A stretch of DNA of 64,000 bases, taken from NCBI GenBank assembly GCA_029552745.1, contig JAKPDK010000167.1, positions 137,973-201,972 on the forward strand, in the 5' to 3' direction. Under the pieces are notes generated by a model. That model worked only from the letters and a program-made list of their open reading frames with translations, had not been told where the DNA came from and made no database searches. Positions within the stretch are counted from its first letter, which is position 1; each line of letters begins with the position of its first letter. Shown one piece after another: positions 47,046-54,735 of this stretch. Source of the stretch: Candidatus Hydrogenedentota bacterium (GTDB lineage: Bacteria > Hydrogenedentota > Hydrogenedentia > Hydrogenedentales > SLHB01). The position numbers and the translations under genes are program-made.

Positions 47046-47108
47046 TACGTGCCCTGTGTGATCAAGAGTTCACGCGAAAAGGTAGTTTGCGCACGAAAGG
47101 GATATGCC

Positions 47109-49199
47109 ATGTCTCGCTTGGCCATGATGCTCGTACTGGTGGGTTTGGCTACGGTTTTTGTTATTTCCTTTGTTTCTTTCGCTGCTCGGGAACAGCCGGC
47201 ACCCTTCGGTGAGCGGGAGGTCTTAAAAGACGGGCTATGCAAACAAGTCAAGCAAAACAACGAATGGCGTATGGCGCAAATAATACCCCCGGGCGCTTGG
47301 GAAAAGGTGTTGGGCTGGGTAGCGCCGGGCGATGTCATTCGCTTTGCGGCAGGACCCCGGGAATTAGCAGAGAAAGCCATTACCAGTCGGATATGCGTTG
47401 ATGGTGAAAAGGTGGACGAGTTTGCGCTGGGCGGTAAAATCGGCTGGGTCGACTACGAGACCGTTATTCCCCAAAACATATCCGGGGAAGCAACCATCGA
47501 ATTTGAGAGTGGTCTCGGCTTTCAACTCGCATGGTGTGAGATCGCCCGGCGGGAGCCACAAAAACCCAATATCCTTGTGATACTTGTTGACACGTTGCGT
47601 CAGGATCACTTGGGGTGCTACGGTTATACACGCCCCACGTCGCCCACCCTGGATATTCTGGCTCAGGACGCCATCCGTTTCACCCAATTGGTGCCTCAAT
47701 CTTCCTGGACACGTCCGTCGGTGGCATCCTTGCTCACGTCATCCTATCCCAGTATTCACGGGGCGATCGATCGAAACACTCCAATGCGACCAGGGATGCC
47801 CTCGCTGGCGTCCGCGTTGCATCATGCCGGTTATGAGACTCACATGTTTATGGGAAATCCTTCATGTCTGCCGTGCTGGGAAATCGGGACAGATTTTGAC
47901 CGAGTTCTGGACTTGGTGGAGCAAAATGCGGAACAGCAGGATGACGCCACGATCATAGATGCCGCGCTTCAAACGCTGCCATCGTTTCACGGACGCCCCT
48001 GGTTCTTCTATGTGCATCTCATGGGACCACATAGCCCGTATATTGCCCGCGAACCTTACAAGTCCACCTTTACGTCTCGAGCGGACGGCAATGACTCCGC
48101 GGTTCAGCGTTTGATAGACGCGTATGACGCTGAAATTGCTTATACCGATGCTCAGATCGCCCGACTTTTGTCGGCGCTGCGGGACCAGGGAATGTATGAG
48201 AATACCTGTATTGTCTTGCTAGCCGACCATGGAGAACAGTTCTATGAGCATGGGGAGTGGGGACATGGTTTATCTCTGTATGAAGAAGAACTACGTGTGC
48301 CGCTGCTGGTAAAACTTCCGGGGAATGCCCACGCCGGCAAGACGTTTGATAACCTATTGCAAACCATCGATATTGCACCGACGCTGTGCGAAATAGCCGG
48401 TGCCCAACCGGATGCGCGTTTCCAAGGTAGATCGTTTTTCGGTCTGATAACGGGAGACGTTCCATGGCAAGACCGATATGCCTATGCCTCGCTTGCATTG
48501 GAAAACCGCAGCGCCCACATGTCGCGAACGACTACGGTGAAGTTCCTGGATGACCGCGCTGCCAAGAGCGAACAATGGTTTGATTTACAAAATGACCCGC
48601 GGGAACAAAACCCCGTTGCGACGCCGGATTCGTTAATGCAAGACCTGCGCCGATTTGCCTTCCAGACCGCTAGCCTCAACACAGAAGGACTGAACATCCT
48701 GATCACCGGGGGAGAAAACCGCCTAGGGGCTATAAAAGGAATTATTTCCGGAACCCAGATTGATATCGAAGCCGCAAAAGCAAGTAATCCCGGATTCAAG
48801 ATAGAAAAGGCCGGAGATTCTTACGTTTTTTACTTTGATCCTTCCTTGAGCTCACCTAGTCTTTATGGAATGGAAGAATGGTATGCACGGGGGGAACAGT
48901 CGAGCACCCATATTCGTCTGCCTATTCAGTCAGCCACGCCCTTATCTCTTCAGCTCTATGTTGACGGGGTGCGTGTTCCTGAAGTGACAGTGGCGGATAA
49001 AAGCCACACAACGAAGGACGCGAGCGCAGCCGTTTTACCCGGGGAAATAACTGCCGATCCCCTTCAATTTGATCCGGCGGTGTTGCCTCGCAAGCAGGCG
49101 GCCTATGTATGGTATGTCCCTGCCTCTCAAGAAATTCCCGATGAGAAAATGGACGAACGGATCAAAGAGGCCTTGACCAGTTTGGGATACCTCAACTGA
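47109..49199 (+). CDS. Sulfatase-fold (alkaline phosphatase superfamily) enzyme, membrane-anchored
   Basis: A 696-residue protein. The start at 47109 is chosen because AGGG is upstream and a signal anchor follows (hydrophobic residues 5-25). The N-terminal part to about residue 145 is a separate beta-rich domain. The catalytic domain (about 152-480) starts with NILVILVDTLRQDHLGCYGY (metal ligand Asp161) and ends near LADHGEQFYEHGEWGHG. The usual sulfatase CxPxR or SxPxR motif is replaced by SSWTRPSVASLL, with Thr201 in the nucleophile position, so a phospho- or phosphonate-transfer reaction is as likely as sulfate release. The last 200 residues are a further domain without a name. It follows a structured leader. 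Confidence 0.87.
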   Translation: MSRLAMMLVLVGLATVFVISFVSFAAREQPAPFGEREVLKDGLCKQVKQNNEWRMAQIIPPGAWEKVLGWVAPGDVIRFAAGPRELAEKAITSRICVDGEKVDEFALGGKIGWVDYETVIPQNISGEATIEFESGLGFQLAWCEIARREPQKPNILVILVDTLRQDHLGCYGYTRPTSPTLDILAQDAIRFTQLVPQSSWTRPSVASLLTSSYPSIHGAIDRNTPMRPGMPSLASALHHAGYETHMFMGNPSCLPCWEIGTDFDRVLDLVEQNAEQQDDATIIDAALQTLPSFHGRPWFFYVHLMGPHSPYIAREPYKSTFTSRADGNDSAVQRLIDAYDAEIAYTDAQIARLLSALRDQGMYENTCIVLLADHGEQFYEHGEWGHGLSLYEEELRVPLLVKLPGNAHAGKTFDNLLQTIDIAPTLCEIAGAQPDARFQGRSFFGLITGDVPWQDRYAYASLALENRSAHMSRTTTVKFLDDRAAKSEQWFDLQNDPREQNPVATPDSLMQDLRRFAFQTASLNTEGLNILITGGENRLGAIKGIISGTQIDIEAAKASNPGFKIEKAGDSYVFYFDPSLSSPSLYGMEEWYARGEQSSTHIRLPIQSATPLSLQLYVDGVRVPEVTVADKSHTTKDASAAVLPGEITADPLQFDPAVLPRKQAAYVWYVPASQEIPDEKMDERIKEALTSLGYLN

Positions 49200-49252: not shown

Positions 49253-52162
49253 CTATTTCTGTACAGGGATGATGATGCCTCGCATGATAACACGTTGGGT
49301 GAGTATAAATACGAGCAACGTCGGGATGGCAGCCACCACGAGACCCGCGAAAATCACATATTGCGGCGAGTCGAATTGCATATCATATAACCAGACCATC
49401 AGGGTCCACATCTTCGGGTCTTGACAAACGATAAAGGCATACATGAACGTGGTGTACGCAATGTTAAATGTTTGCAGCGCAATCACAGCGAGGATAGGTT
49501 TGCTAAGGGGCAGGGTGACATTGCGAAACATCCAGAGTTCTTTCGCGCCTTCGATCTCCGCCGACTCATACAGATTTTGTGGAAGGCTGTCGAAAAATCC
49601 TTTTAGGAGAAAAATGGCGTAGCCGTTGGCGATACTAGGCAGAATAAGCGCCCAAAATGTATTAAGCAAACTAACCTTCGGGGACGAAAAACCGATCATT
49701 CTCACCAGGGCAGGCGTGACCAAAATCCCGAGAAGCGCCGCACCTGTCGCCGCTACCCCCACCGGAGATATCCGAAGGCGTGTATTCTTCGCGCCGAGAC
49801 GCGCTATACCCCAAAGCACAAAGATACCCAGAGCAAGAACAGTAAGTAGGAGGGCGCGAAGCGTTTCCGGCTTAACCGAAACCTCCAGAGAAAACGCGCC
49901 GAATTGCGTCGCCGCATGACGCAGTGCCCCAAGGGCTGCTCCTGCCACGATGCAACCTTCCACTAGGTTCCAAAGGCGTGGGGCAAGTGGCATTACTTTA
50001 TAGCTGGCAAAGAGTAGGATGGAAGCAAAGACAGCGCCAACGAGAAGATAGCCCAGGGGAAAATTCTTCAACAGAAGAAACCCGGGGATCATGGTCACTT
50101 CGGGGGGAAACGCCATCGTCGCCATGAAGAACAAAAGGACCTTGTAGGTGCTGGGCAATTGAAAACGGGAGAGGGCGTAAGCCGCTAATGGATTGACCAC
50201 GAGGGTGCACACGATCATGGCAACGACAAAAAACACGGTGTTATACAAGGCACGGCCGTGGAACAGAATGAAGTTCAACACGACGCGATAGTTGGACACA
50301 AGGAACTCCCACCGAATAGCAGACTTGTTTTGCTGCAGGTCCAACCAGTCCCGCGCATACTCTTGGTTTGGGTAGTCACGAAACGTCTGGTTTTTTCTTT
50401 CAGAAAAGGCATCGATTTGACGGATCCAAGAAATTAGCATCCGATCGTTTTTCAGAAATGCCTCGCGGATGTGTTCCAAGGAATCCAAGCCCAGGCGATC
50501 TAGCAACGTCGGATGGGGTACTTCCGCGTCACGTTTCTTGAGATCGTTTTCCACTATTTGAAACAGTTCGGTTGGCTCACTCCGTCCATATTCTTCCAAA
50601 ATAGCAAGTGCAGTTTTGCCAAACGGCGTGAGTTGTGCGACTAATTCTTCTCTCGTCCCCATAGGGTACGTCACGGACGCACACACGGCACGTTCCAACT
50701 CCTCAACCGTCTGGTATTTCTTTTCCAAGTAACGTGCAAACAGGGTATCGGGCGTGACCAAGCGTATCTCGCTCAACGGACAGACCTCCATGATGAAACT
50801 ATTGAAATCTCGAGCGAGAGGTGTTTTTAGCGGCACAGGTTGAGGAATAGACAGCGACGTGACAGCGGCGCGAAGTGATGAAACAGGGGGCGTCACCGTT
50901 ATCCCATATTTTTGACGGAACAGATCCAGGGCTTTTGCTTCATCACCGTCCGCCGTAGAGAGATAGGTAGAGACCAGATAATCGCGAAATGCCCCGATGC
51001 CGTTTTCGGTGATCCGAATGAACTGGAGATGGATCTCGTTTCGGACGTATTCGCTCCAATCTTCCACTGTCTGTAATGTCAACCCCCCGTCAAAATCTTC
51101 TGAAAACAAAAACTCGCGGAAATCGGATAACACGGGAGTCTGCGTATCCGAGGTAATCGGTTCGCTGGGACGAAACCGAGCAAACGCGTCCGGCTCCACA
51201 CGATAGACGTTTGCGGCATTTTCTGCCGAGCCGTATTTTTTCATCAAGAAGTTCCGAAAGGCGTCTTGCGCGCTCGGCTGAAACCGTATATTTCGCACCC
51301 GCCAGTCATCCGCGGCATAGGCAATCCACTCGCGGCGGTCCAGCGGCAGGCTGGGCGCGCGTTCGTCCAATATCACTTCTGCGTAAGAACGGTACGTGGT
51401 GCCGTGTGTCGCGTTATACTGTTCGATGTCGCGGGAATATTTAGGCCAAATATAGGTGGAAAGAAATTGGGCGTCCGCGGACAGAGGCAACAAGAAATGC
51501 GGCTCGTTACGACGGAGCTCTTGCTTCGTTTGAACCATGTGGTTGCAGATGGGGTTTTCTTCTGGCACGTAACGGCGGTTTGTCCAGATCTCAGCGGGCG
51601 GCAATATCATGTAGAAATGCCCGAAATTGAGCCCCCATTCGCCGTTGAGCGCCTCGATATCTCCATGAAATTGGGCGGACAGCATGCCTAACCAACGTTG
51701 ATAGAGCCAGGGTTTACGGAAAGAAGGCGAATAAAAAGCCGCTAACTGGAACCATGACAGCGGAAGACGACCATCAGTACCCGGAAACACATCATGCCAG
51801 TCATCGCTTTCCAGAAAAGCCAGCCAATCCTTGAGCAACGCTTCAGAATAGACCGCCGGCGGCAACACGTCCTCAAATCGATTGAACTGTGTTTTCCAAG
51901 TACTGTTCATCCATGATTCCGACTGGTTGTACCGTTCCTCGACGTATTTTTGAAAAAGAACCGCGTCGTCATACCAATAGCGGGGGATGACGTCGTACTC
52001 ATGCATATCGACAGGGCTCTTGAACGAGCCGGACAGCATGACGCCGAAGGGATAGATCATCGCGAAACTACCAGCGATCAGCGTCAGATAGATCAGCCCG
52101 ATCAAGACCCGTGTCTTAGGATATTTCCTTCCTATTTTTGAAATAATCGGCAAAGAGGTCAC
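49253..52162 (-). CDS. Giant carbohydrate ABC permease (MalG-like) with periplasmic and membrane insertions
   Basis: A 969-residue permease subunit; ordinary MalG-type proteins have about 280-300 residues. After the first span (about 20-45) there is an insertion of about 590 residues (about 48-637) that must lie in the periplasm. It contains repeated Trp/Tyr/Phe-rich helical pieces but no domain I recognise. The permease core resumes with ALYNTVFFVVAMIVC at 638. Between LLLKNFPL (about 705) and LLNTFWALILP (about 832) there is a second insertion of about 125 residues with roughly four more hydrophobic segments. The EAA loop is ESAEIEGAKELWMFRNV (about 866). The start is a GTG at 52162 with a weak ribosome binding site. 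It follows the fused binding protein-permease gene by 29 bases. Confidence 0.9.
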   Translation of the reverse strand: MTSLPIISKIGRKYPKTRVLIGLIYLTLIAGSFAMIYPFGVMLSGSFKSPVDMHEYDVIPRYWYDDAVLFQKYVEERYNQSESWMNSTWKTQFNRFEDVLPPAVYSEALLKDWLAFLESDDWHDVFPGTDGRLPLSWFQLAAFYSPSFRKPWLYQRWLGMLSAQFHGDIEALNGEWGLNFGHFYMILPPAEIWTNRRYVPEENPICNHMVQTKQELRRNEPHFLLPLSADAQFLSTYIWPKYSRDIEQYNATHGTTYRSYAEVILDERAPSLPLDRREWIAYAADDWRVRNIRFQPSAQDAFRNFLMKKYGSAENAANVYRVEPDAFARFRPSEPITSDTQTPVLSDFREFLFSEDFDGGLTLQTVEDWSEYVRNEIHLQFIRITENGIGAFRDYLVSTYLSTADGDEAKALDLFRQKYGITVTPPVSSLRAAVTSLSIPQPVPLKTPLARDFNSFIMEVCPLSEIRLVTPDTLFARYLEKKYQTVEELERAVCASVTYPMGTREELVAQLTPFGKTALAILEEYGRSEPTELFQIVENDLKKRDAEVPHPTLLDRLGLDSLEHIREAFLKNDRMLISWIRQIDAFSERKNQTFRDYPNQEYARDWLDLQQNKSAIRWEFLVSNYRVVLNFILFHGRALYNTVFFVVAMIVCTLVVNPLAAYALSRFQLPSTYKVLLFFMATMAFPPEVTMIPGFLLLKNFPLGYLLVGAVFASILLFASYKVMPLAPRLWNLVEGCIVAGAALGALRHAATQFGAFSLEVSVKPETLRALLLTVLALGIFVLWGIARLGAKNTRLRISPVGVAATGAALLGILVTPALVRMIGFSSPKVSLLNTFWALILPSIANGYAIFLLKGFFDSLPQNLYESAEIEGAKELWMFRNVTLPLSKPILAVIALQTFNIAYTTFMYAFIVCQDPKMWTLMVWLYDMQFDSPQYVIFAGLVVAAIPTLLVFILTQRVIMRGIIIPVQK

Positions 52163-52191
52163 TCCGTTCTCGTATCACAATCCAGCGATTC

Positions 52192-54735
52192 TCATTTCGG
52201 ATTTTCCGCGGCGCTGACGGCTTTGAATTGCAGCCGCGACATGATGCGTAGTTGATAACTGGTGAAACCGATCAACAGACTACCCAAAATCCATGCCATC
52301 GCCGCGCCGATGCCAAACTTCAGGTACAAAAACGATCGAATCCAGATCTCATAGCCCAATACATGCGTCGCGTCCCCAGGACCGCCCGCCGTCATGATGA
52401 ATATGAAGTTCGCCGACCGAAACGCCGCAATGAAAGCGCCTATGAAGTTAATAATCACCAACGGTTTCAGATAAGGGATGACGATGTGCCGAATTTTCGC
52501 CCGGAAGCCCGCCCCGTCGATTTCCGCCGCTTCATAAAAATCATCCGGTATGGACTTGAGGGCGGCAAGATACACGATACACCCGGGACCTATCCCCGCC
52601 CACAACTGAGGCAACATAACACAGATCATCGCCAATTTTGGGTCTTGCAACCACCGCTGCGGTCCCAAAGCCAGTTTGGCAAACCAGCCCATCAGGGGCA
52701 CGTGCGTGGCTGTCCCTTTCACGAAAGAATCCCAAAGATCGATCACCTGGTTCATAAATCCCGCGTCCGAAGGATCAAAAAAGTTCTTCCACAAGAACGC
52801 AATAACAAGACCTGTTGTCACCGCGGGGAGATAAAACAGGACGCGGAAAAGTATTTTGCCGCGGGGCACCTCTTGCAACAGGATGGCGAGAAAAATGGGA
52901 GGCCAGAAACAGAGCCCAATGGACAACAACATGTAGTACGTACTGTTCCACAGGTATTTCCAGAAAAGGGGATCGAAAAGTACTTGGGCGAAATTGCCAA
53001 GTCCCACAAAGCGAGTCTCGCGCACGATTTTATAATCTTGAAACGCAATTACCGACCCCTGAGCAAGAGGCACATATTGCCACAAAAAGACCAGCGCTGC
53101 CGCCGGTAAAATTAAAAGGTACGCCTTGCGGTACTTAAAAAAGCTCCAACCAGCACTCCGCGCCCATTCCGGCGTGAAATCCTGATAAACCCTGTAAAAG
53201 ACAAAGAAAAACACAGCACATATGATTACCGCCACGCCGAGAGCCACGCGTTTCCGAAATCGTTCCACTTCAGGAGGTAATATGCCAAGCATTTTCTCGT
53301 TCGTACTCTTGGCGGCGGCTTGAAGAATGCCTTTGATATGGGTGCGGCGCTGTTCGTCTGTCAGTCCGGAAAAATCACCCTCGGCGATCTGATTGAGCGG
53401 ACGACTCATCTCAATGTACACGAGGTCACAATTCTTCCCATACGGTTCCGGCTTGCCGTGTTCCATCGCCGTCTGATACGCCTTCCGCCAGGATTCGGGG
53501 ATTTGGCGCAGATAGTCCGTGTAGCCAAACTCTTCTAGCCACACCGGATTGGCAAACCGACCATATCCCATATCGATGAACACGCGGAGCATGATCTCAT
53601 GGGCTTCCTTGCTGTCGAAAAACCAGAGAAACTCCCACGCTTTCTGCAACACGTCCGGATCGGTCGTAGTCGCTGCGATTCCCATCATAGGGCAGTTCAA
53701 CTCACTGCCCAAGGCGCCAGCAGGACCCTTAGGCACCGGGGCGATCCCGGTATCTTCCGGATTGATCTGCGCCAGAATACGCCCCTCGAGGTAATTGAAC
53801 ATCATACCGATGCGGCCCGTAGACCATTTGAAGTACAGATCGGCGTCTCGATAAGCGACGCCTCGGTAGGTCTTTCCGTATTTTTGGACGGGGTCCGCGA
53901 TGAGTTTTCGGTAAAAATCAAAGGCTAAAACCGCCGCATCCGAATCATACACGGCACGCCACTCGCCATGTTCATCTTGCGTAATAGCTTCCGCGCCTGC
54001 CGACCACAAGAACGACATGAAGTTCCATGCCGATGTAGGCCCCCCGATTAACCCAATGCCGTAGATGCCTCGCTGGGGATCATGAATCCTTCTCGCCGCT
54101 TCATAAAGTTCCTCCCAGGTCTGCGGAGGCTTTTCAGGATCAAGCCCCGCTTCCAGAAACAAATCTTTTCGATAGACAAGGGCAACTACCAGCACGTTGT
54201 GTGGCAACGCCCAGACGTGTTTTTTCCCATCGGGTCCCGCACGATAAATGACGGGCCAGACGGCTTTCGGCACACGATGACGAAGGATTTCGGGCACTTC
54301 ATCATCGCGAAACGGCTGGGTTTCGTCAATGGGCAGCCCCTGACGCTTCGTCTCCGCAATGAGGAAATCATCCAAAGGCCGCAGAAAACCCTCTTGAATA
54401 TAACTGTCGGATTTCCGGAAATTGACGTAAAGCAGGTCCGGCGCTATCCCCCCTGCCAGCGCCATCAGCGGCCCCACTTCCAACATCAACGTCTCGGCGC
54501 GAAGTCCCATAAAAGGGACAAGCTCCACGTTTTCATTGCCTGGACGCTGAAGAAAGGCATCGACTACGGCTCGCTGCGCACGGAACATCACTCCCCCTTC
54601 CCCCGGGCGAGGCAAATTGTAGACGGTGACGCGGACTTTTTTTGCACCCTCTTCCGCGCGGACGCCCCGATACGCCGGCAACAAAACGCACAGCAACCAG
54701 AGCCCACCCGTTATTGCGAGCCGCGTTCTACGCAC
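52192..54735 (-). CDS. Solute-binding protein fused to a MalF-like sugar ABC permease
   Basis: An 847-residue fusion. A signal peptide or anchor (about 5-25) is followed by a family 1 solute-binding domain (about 33-470) with typical pieces such as PDLLYVNF, WALPHNVLVVALVYRKDLF, PPQTWEELYEAARRI and FKWSTGRIGMMFNYLE. A membrane span at about 498-515 leads to a MalF-type permease (about 538-835). Its EAA loop is DDFYEAAEIDGAGFRAKIRH (731-750), ending with spans around 770-825. The binding protein would thus be tethered to the transporter. AGGAG precedes the GTG start by seven bases. The partner permease gene follows after 29 bases. No ATPase gene is in the window, so the ATPase is probably shared. 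Confidence 0.92.
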   Translation of the reverse strand: MRRTRLAITGGLWLLCVLLPAYRGVRAEEGAKKVRVTVYNLPRPGEGGVMFRAQRAVVDAFLQRPGNENVELVPFMGLRAETLMLEVGPLMALAGGIAPDLLYVNFRKSDSYIQEGFLRPLDDFLIAETKRQGLPIDETQPFRDDEVPEILRHRVPKAVWPVIYRAGPDGKKHVWALPHNVLVVALVYRKDLFLEAGLDPEKPPQTWEELYEAARRIHDPQRGIYGIGLIGGPTSAWNFMSFLWSAGAEAITQDEHGEWRAVYDSDAAVLAFDFYRKLIADPVQKYGKTYRGVAYRDADLYFKWSTGRIGMMFNYLEGRILAQINPEDTGIAPVPKGPAGALGSELNCPMMGIAATTTDPDVLQKAWEFLWFFDSKEAHEIMLRVFIDMGYGRFANPVWLEEFGYTDYLRQIPESWRKAYQTAMEHGKPEPYGKNCDLVYIEMSRPLNQIAEGDFSGLTDEQRRTHIKGILQAAAKSTNEKMLGILPPEVERFRKRVALGVAVIICAVFFFVFYRVYQDFTPEWARSAGWSFFKYRKAYLLILPAAALVFLWQYVPLAQGSVIAFQDYKIVRETRFVGLGNFAQVLFDPLFWKYLWNSTYYMLLSIGLCFWPPIFLAILLQEVPRGKILFRVLFYLPAVTTGLVIAFLWKNFFDPSDAGFMNQVIDLWDSFVKGTATHVPLMGWFAKLALGPQRWLQDPKLAMICVMLPQLWAGIGPGCIVYLAALKSIPDDFYEAAEIDGAGFRAKIRHIVIPYLKPLVIINFIGAFIAAFRSANFIFIMTAGGPGDATHVLGYEIWIRSFLYLKFGIGAAMAWILGSLLIGFTSYQLRIMSRLQFKAVSAAENPK

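Follow-up and report, generated by a model that had tools for sequence, protein, structure and literature searches.

A predicted maltose-type ABC sugar importer of Hydrogenedentota with a binding protein tethered to MalF and an array of GH42-like helical modules in MalG

The window (the whole stretch of DNA analysed here, 64,000 nucleotides from a Candidatus Hydrogenedentota genome) contains two genes for what is, judged by domain content, a maltose-type (CUT1-like, type I) ABC sugar importer. With importers of this type it shares a family 1 solute-binding protein (SBP) and a MalF/MalG pair with the BPD_transp_1 core and the EAA loop. New here is the nature of the insert in the first periplasmic loop (P1) of MalG, which is a tandem array of GH42-like helical modules. 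The architecture is a real variant of this importer type and is widespread; it is apparently undescribed, and no account of it was found in the open-access literature. We suggest, with belief and doubt about evenly balanced, that the helical MalG-P1 array is a docking platform or cage for an SBP tethered to MalF.

Table 1. Features of the two importer genes in the window
Feature	Residues	Position	Strand	Remarks
SBP-MalF fusion gene		52192..54735	-	847 aa; GTG start, AGGAG upstream; intact ORF
Signal peptide (...YRGVRA/EE)	1-28	54652..54735	-	read from the sequence by eye
Family 1 solute-binding domain	about 29-492	53260..54651	-	SBP_bac_1, SBP_bac_8 matches
Extra anchor span linking SBP to MalF	493-521	53173..53259	-	hydropathy 2.46
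MalF core, six spans	537-847	52195..53127	-	BPD_transp_1 at 622-821, E 3e-9
MalG with two insertions		49253..52162	-	969 aa as listed; 966 aa from TTG at 52153; intact ORF
Insert 1, P1-loop tandem-module domain	about 48-630	50273..52021	-	conserved in 79 loci; AlphaFold2; GH42 kinship
Module 1	70-113	51824..51955	-	module HMM 35.6 bits, i-E 9.5e-13
Module 2	161-196	51575..51682	-	module HMM 23.9 bits, i-E 4e-9
Module 3	237-279	51326..51454	-	module HMM 42.1 bits, i-E 9e-15
Module 4	302-335	51158..51259	-	module HMM 11.2 bits, i-E 4e-5
Degenerate module	475-492	50687..50740	-	module HMM 7.2 bits, i-E 7e-4
Insert 2, about 129 extra residues, four hydrophobic segments, periplasmic loop TM3-TM4		49676..50062	-	alignment, hydropathy
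EAA coupling loop of MalG (DSLPQNLYESAEIEGAKELWMF...)		49496..49591	-	kept in all relatives

The product of the first gene is composed of a signal peptide, the SBP, one extra span and the MalF core (Table 1), and the predicted signal peptide places the SBP in the periplasm. The SBP domain was matched by the Pfam-type profiles SBP_bac_1 (E 8.2e-24) and SBP_bac_8 (E 2.5e-11). Its PDB relatives are general sugar-binding proteins only, which indicate no specific substrate, and a substrate assignment from the SBP was rejected on that ground. A preliminary description of this DNA had the SBP fused directly to MalF; the fusion is borne out by the single ORF, but "directly" needs qualifying because an additional membrane span lies between the two and forms the tether. 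The TM1-TM2 loop of the fused MalF is only about 40 aa, which means that the MalF-P2 domain (about 180 aa in E. coli) is missing, and the MalF model aligned only from model position 265 onward. Elsewhere in the family, one SBP-MalF frame (L048:2299-6960) has 1554 codons with about 700 residues ahead of the SBP that may form another fused domain, and the SBP part of another (L032:4372-6500) contains several Cys-x2-Cys pairs resembling zinc ribbons, which is unusual for a periplasmic binding protein.

The MalG gene follows after 29 bases on the same minus strand. Translation of MalG probably begins with the TTG at 52153, as relatives start with MPIIS and GGAG lies upstream. MalG is composed of a positively charged N-terminus, span 1, the P1 insert and then a conserved remainder including the EAA loop; its core was matched by BPD_transp_1 (E 7e-9) and the UgpE/MalG models (E about 1e-15). 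The second insertion described earlier, with about four extra hydrophobic segments, was also found: 138 residues stand between alignment columns that otherwise hold 9, and AlphaFold2 confidence is low there. The four-span form occurred only in the window MalG and L042, while a two-span form occurred in ten loci of one clade (SH-aLRT 96 in the MalG core tree), namely L043, L051, L063, L064, L068, L069, L086, L088, L100 and L102, with flanks similar to those of the four-span insertion in the window MalG.

Insert 1 (about 590 residues), periplasmic by topology, was confirmed between spans 1 and 2, as the preliminary description had it, and was aligned over its full length with relatives. It is built of helical modules of about 70 residues each, with the consensus FRKYLEAKYGGDIEALNRAYGTDYASFEEIPLPARLPENGLERRDW followed by a helix. 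Through the module HMM we found four clear modules and a degenerate one in the window MalG, and another remnant near residues 392-401 whose score was not significant. Among the inserted MalGs, five modules were detectable in 56 proteins, four in 15, seven in five, three in four and two in one. AlphaFold2 predicted the P1 insert alone as almost all-helical (mean pLDDT 86.7, pTM 0.82). With this model, Foldseek against the PDB found no fold match of the whole insert below E 1 (best E 1.2), and only weak local structural matches to GH42. The insert was earlier called rich in Trp, Tyr and Phe; a slight excess exists (13.9% vs 12.7% in the remainder of MalG), but the content is ordinary and not markedly rich. 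Within one related insert (L043:7145-8692), a stretch of the form CQRHGLL...PGxAEAAGASGVAETS occurs twice in frame and nearly unchanged, and has the look of a mobile or repeat element that entered without breaking the reading frame.

Among about 85,000 species genomes scanned, 494 relatives were confirmed; the best 79 of the 494 loci, which were read, come from at least eleven phyla by the names in the MAG record titles: Hydrogenedentota, Lentisphaerota, Kiritimatiellota, Verrucomicrobiota, Planctomycetota, Armatimonadota, Delongbacteria, Coatesbacteria, Firestonebacteria, Cloacimonadota and Sumerlaeota. Two "Actinomycetota" MAGs, maybe misbinned, are additional carriers. In a set of 100 genomes, related ones or samples, the closest full-length relative showed 52% identity over the whole protein. 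In full-length alignment the window P1 insert showed 44% identity to the other Hydrogenedentota copy and 20-29% to the remaining relatives. Between the same alignment columns the insert measured 264-598 aa among the loci, vs 43 in an ordinary MalG of the window's genome. In a tree of the MalG core with inserts removed, 77 insert-bearing MalGs were split from all 27 standard MalGs by a branch with SH-aLRT 100. An artefact of assembly, frameshift or chance reading frame has next to no probability as the source of the fusion and the insert, since frame and sequence are kept in independent MAGs of at least eleven phyla. The two doubts raised in the preliminary description, an unconserved chance extension and a sequencing join, are excluded because the insert is conserved over its full length in relatives and its fold is predicted with high confidence. 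One Hydrogenedentota genome has SBP, MalF and module-insert MalG as a single ORF of 1522 aa (L032:4372-8937), in which the usual MalG N-terminus is absent at the junction.

The kinship of the modules lies with glycoside hydrolases. When each insert-bearing protein was scanned singly with Pfam, GH42 was found in 71/79 and GH14 in 25/79, and any other family in at most one member; the GH42 match spans only positions 137-196 of the 376 in the model. Both in a PDB search with the insert profile and in one with the module profile, the matches were glycoside hydrolases, GH42 beta-galactosidases among them (best E 8.6e-8); the module profile matched 9ta3 (E 8.6e-8) and 1kwg (E 5.4e-6). The matched part is one non-catalytic GH42 segment, the helical subdomain that follows strand 4 of the barrel, downstream of the acid/base strand. 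The insert was considered as an enzyme and this was ruled out, for it has neither the catalytic TIM barrel nor its two Glu. Throughout the window's own genome, the module was confined to the two MalG inserts and GH42-type proteins. A GH42-type enzyme is its inferred source, with the transfer in that direction.

In GH42-type enzymes a subdomain with helices, lying between strand 4 and the helix after it, touches the neighbouring chain (PMC7105311); in BiBga42A, Trp-200 and Phe-221 of this subdomain extend into the neighbour's sugar site, and Trp-200 is among the residues conserved in structurally known GH42 enzymes. It is conceivable, but improbable, that the array binds glycan directly through several weak sites and passes long oligosaccharides to the SBP, along the lines of the preliminary description. 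Kinship with a subdomain of carbohydrate enzymes, the avidity possible from repeats and the two aromatic residues given to the neighbour's sugar site are consistent with such binding. Yet the 1kwg stretch GTAFWSQRY, the expected site of the sugar-contacting Trp, is a gap in the module alignment; by its spacing to the acid/base residue, WSQRY would be the equivalent of Trp-200. The positions conserved among the modules (L, Y, N, GT, P, W) seem to have structural roles, and the aromatic content is, as said, ordinary. The earlier suggestion of a second substrate-binding or docking module for polymeric substrates is thus divided: binding of polymeric substrates finds no support, given the absent Trp, the ordinary aromatic content and the lack of a link between the loci and one polymer, while docking fits the position in a loop reported to contact the SBP, the occurrence with tethered SBPs only and modules whose GH42 counterparts make contacts between proteins.

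We examined the pairing of the two traits in both directions. Among 81 inserted MalGs, an SBP-MalF fusion lies beside the module-MalG in 67/67 loci with a complete neighbouring MalF, as judged by HMMs for MalF, MalG and SBP that were trained on these very loci. For the remaining 14, seven MalFs are cut by contig ends, six loci have no MalF in the stretch of DNA read around them, and the MalF of L067, which starts 26 bases away from the end of its contig, is probably truncated too. The survey of co-occurrence called for earlier therefore holds from module-MalG to SBP-MalF but fails in reverse. That both traits always go together was rejected, as the fusion occurs without the insert in L038, L039 and others; because ten of the 34 fused pairs have no P1 insert, tethering does not require one.

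We also contrasted 66 MalF/MalG pairs of the window's class, hand-picked from the list of matches and not random, with P1 loop lengths set by a hydropathy rule. A P1 loop of more than 200 aa was found in 24/34 fused vs 0/32 unfused pairs (Fisher p 2e-10, ignoring relatedness), a value not to be taken as proof because the tree shows only two gains of the large loop among the 66 pairs. Once relatedness is allowed for, the contrast is not significant, and with two gains a test on independent pairs is without power. The 24 large loops comprise three module inserts and 21 "type B" inserts, which are about 312 aa long, unrelated to the modules in sequence and without Pfam match. Type B inserts share conserved W/D/R motifs, among them HxDRSWH and DRWQDxTWQ. 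One example is from the window's own genome (L037:3537-5204 on G000:C106); further type B loci are L184-L191, L193, L199, L200, L203, L206, L207, L209-L211, L214, L215, L218 and L221. Type B MalGs adjoin an SBP-MalF fusion in every pair read.

MalF-P2 and MalG-P1 occupy pseudo-symmetric core TM1-TM2 loops, as in the 2R6G structure. MalE contacts both of them according to Daus et al. 2007, as cited in PMC3150292. Because the insert replaces exactly the MalG loop that is reported to touch MalE, and the window MalF has no P2, a docking platform would be the simplest reading. It fits the evidence of the 67/67 pairing across at least eleven phyla, of the 24/34 vs 0/32 contrast, of two unrelated insert families in the same loop and of the confidently predicted, almost all-helical fold, and, by analogy, of a GH42 subdomain that makes subunit contacts. 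Several points count against it: the fused/unfused contrast loses its significance once relatedness is allowed for, ten fusions have no P1 insert, MalF-P2 is missing from many ordinary transporters too, e.g. UgpA and SugA, and a module number of 2-7 would equally suit a spacer, a multivalent binder or a precise dock. A role mainly as spacer or envelope anchor, for instance reaching peptidoglycan or fixing the height of the SBP, would agree with this copy number varying while the module structure stays conserved, and with the absence of a PDB fold match for the whole insert; we consider it distinctly improbable, since it leaves both the pairing with tethered SBPs and the position in the loop reported to contact the SBP unexplained.

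In the docking proposal, the SBP would be permanently anchored to MalF through its own membrane span, and MalG-P1 would have been enlarged by a rigid array of helical GH42-like modules standing in the periplasm. This array may contact the SBP directly as platform or cage and so, on the MalG side, take the role of the E. coli MalF-P2 cap, keeping the SBP poised above the pore and raising the local concentration of loaded SBP. The cargo would be an oligosaccharide of unspecified kind. Energy may be supplied by a shared, unlinked MalK-type ATPase: none is encoded in the operon, and the genome contains exactly one TOBE_2 (MalK-like) ATPase (L151:4369-5481), which is unlinked. One ATPase serving several importers is known for MsmX (PMC5730181). 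The gene at L151:4369-5481 adjoins galactose genes (UDP-glucose epimerase and galactokinase by sequence) and is unlinked to the many MalF/MalG pairs of the genome. A bolder version, which we think rather unlikely, is that a captured glycoside-hydrolase piece, multiplied into a helical solenoid in the docking loop of MalG, evolved jointly with the tethered SBP to give a distinct importer class for long or branched glycans; SBP and platform would then form a closed chamber over the pore, so that substrate would pass without free diffusion of the SBP.

No fixed partner gene or enzyme was found beside the loci read, where neighbours are diverse; alpha-mannosidase, alpha-L-rhamnosidase and GH2 genes are included but none is recurrent. 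This bears on the idea that the insert recruits periplasmic glycoside hydrolases, its modules binding GH42-like enzymes or each other so that products are freed beside the transporter. Packing of the same subdomain against a neighbouring enzyme chain, the confinement of the module within the genome to two MalG inserts and GH42-type proteins, and the GH38, GH106 or GH2 genes adjoining some loci would all suit it; but a GH42 gene is not a steady neighbour, and the strict pairing with tethered SBPs and the second unrelated insert family stay unexplained, which makes recruitment quite unlikely. In the window itself, a convergent gene reading as sulfatase (47049-49199) lies 53 bases from the MalG gene.

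Compared with E. coli MalEFGK2 (PDB 2R6G), the window system likewise has MalF/MalG-type permeases with EAA loops and a family 1 SBP, and in the PDB fold search the window MalG core had MalG structures among its top matches. However, MalE of E. coli is free and its MalF carries the P2 cap, whereas the window system joins its SBP to a MalF without P2 and has a MalG-P1 of about 590 aa. The mycobacterial trehalose importer LpqY-SugABC provided the best sequence match of the window MalF part (8ja7_A, E 5.5e-17) and, with 8hps_B, the best match to the fold of the MalG core, and P2 is absent in both systems; LpqY, however, is a polypeptide of its own, and SugB lacks a large P1 insert. OpuA and GlnPQ (type I) also carry a substrate-binding domain covalently in the permease chain (PMC8025302, PMC11065425), but belong to compatible-solute or amino-acid families and have no helical array on the partner permease. 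The domains of the window system, SBP_bac_1 with UgpA/UgpE-like permeases, place it outside the betaine/amino-acid importer families. With the GH42 beta-galactosidases (1kwg, 9ta3, BiBga42A) the insert shares the helical subdomain that lies after strand 4 and before the next helix; it repeats that segment alone in tandem and lacks the TIM barrel, the catalytic Glu and a counterpart of Trp-200. Three other loci of the window's genome, L037, L038 and L039, have the SBP-MalF layout of the window fusion, but MalG-P1 is 26-42 aa in L038 and L039 and the unrelated 312-aa insert in L037.

Type I importers are textbook machines in which the binding protein usually associates and leaves. Here, in a family spread over many uncultured lineages (PVC group, Hydrogenedentota, Armatimonadota, Delongbacteria), the SBP is locked to one subunit and a probable docking loop is rebuilt from enzyme-subdomain repeats, a case of a glycoside-hydrolase-like piece reused in a transporter. 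For annotation, such MalGs are likely named plain permeases, or miscalled beta-galactosidases because of their GH42-like modules. The family would offer a natural system for studying the role of docking loops.
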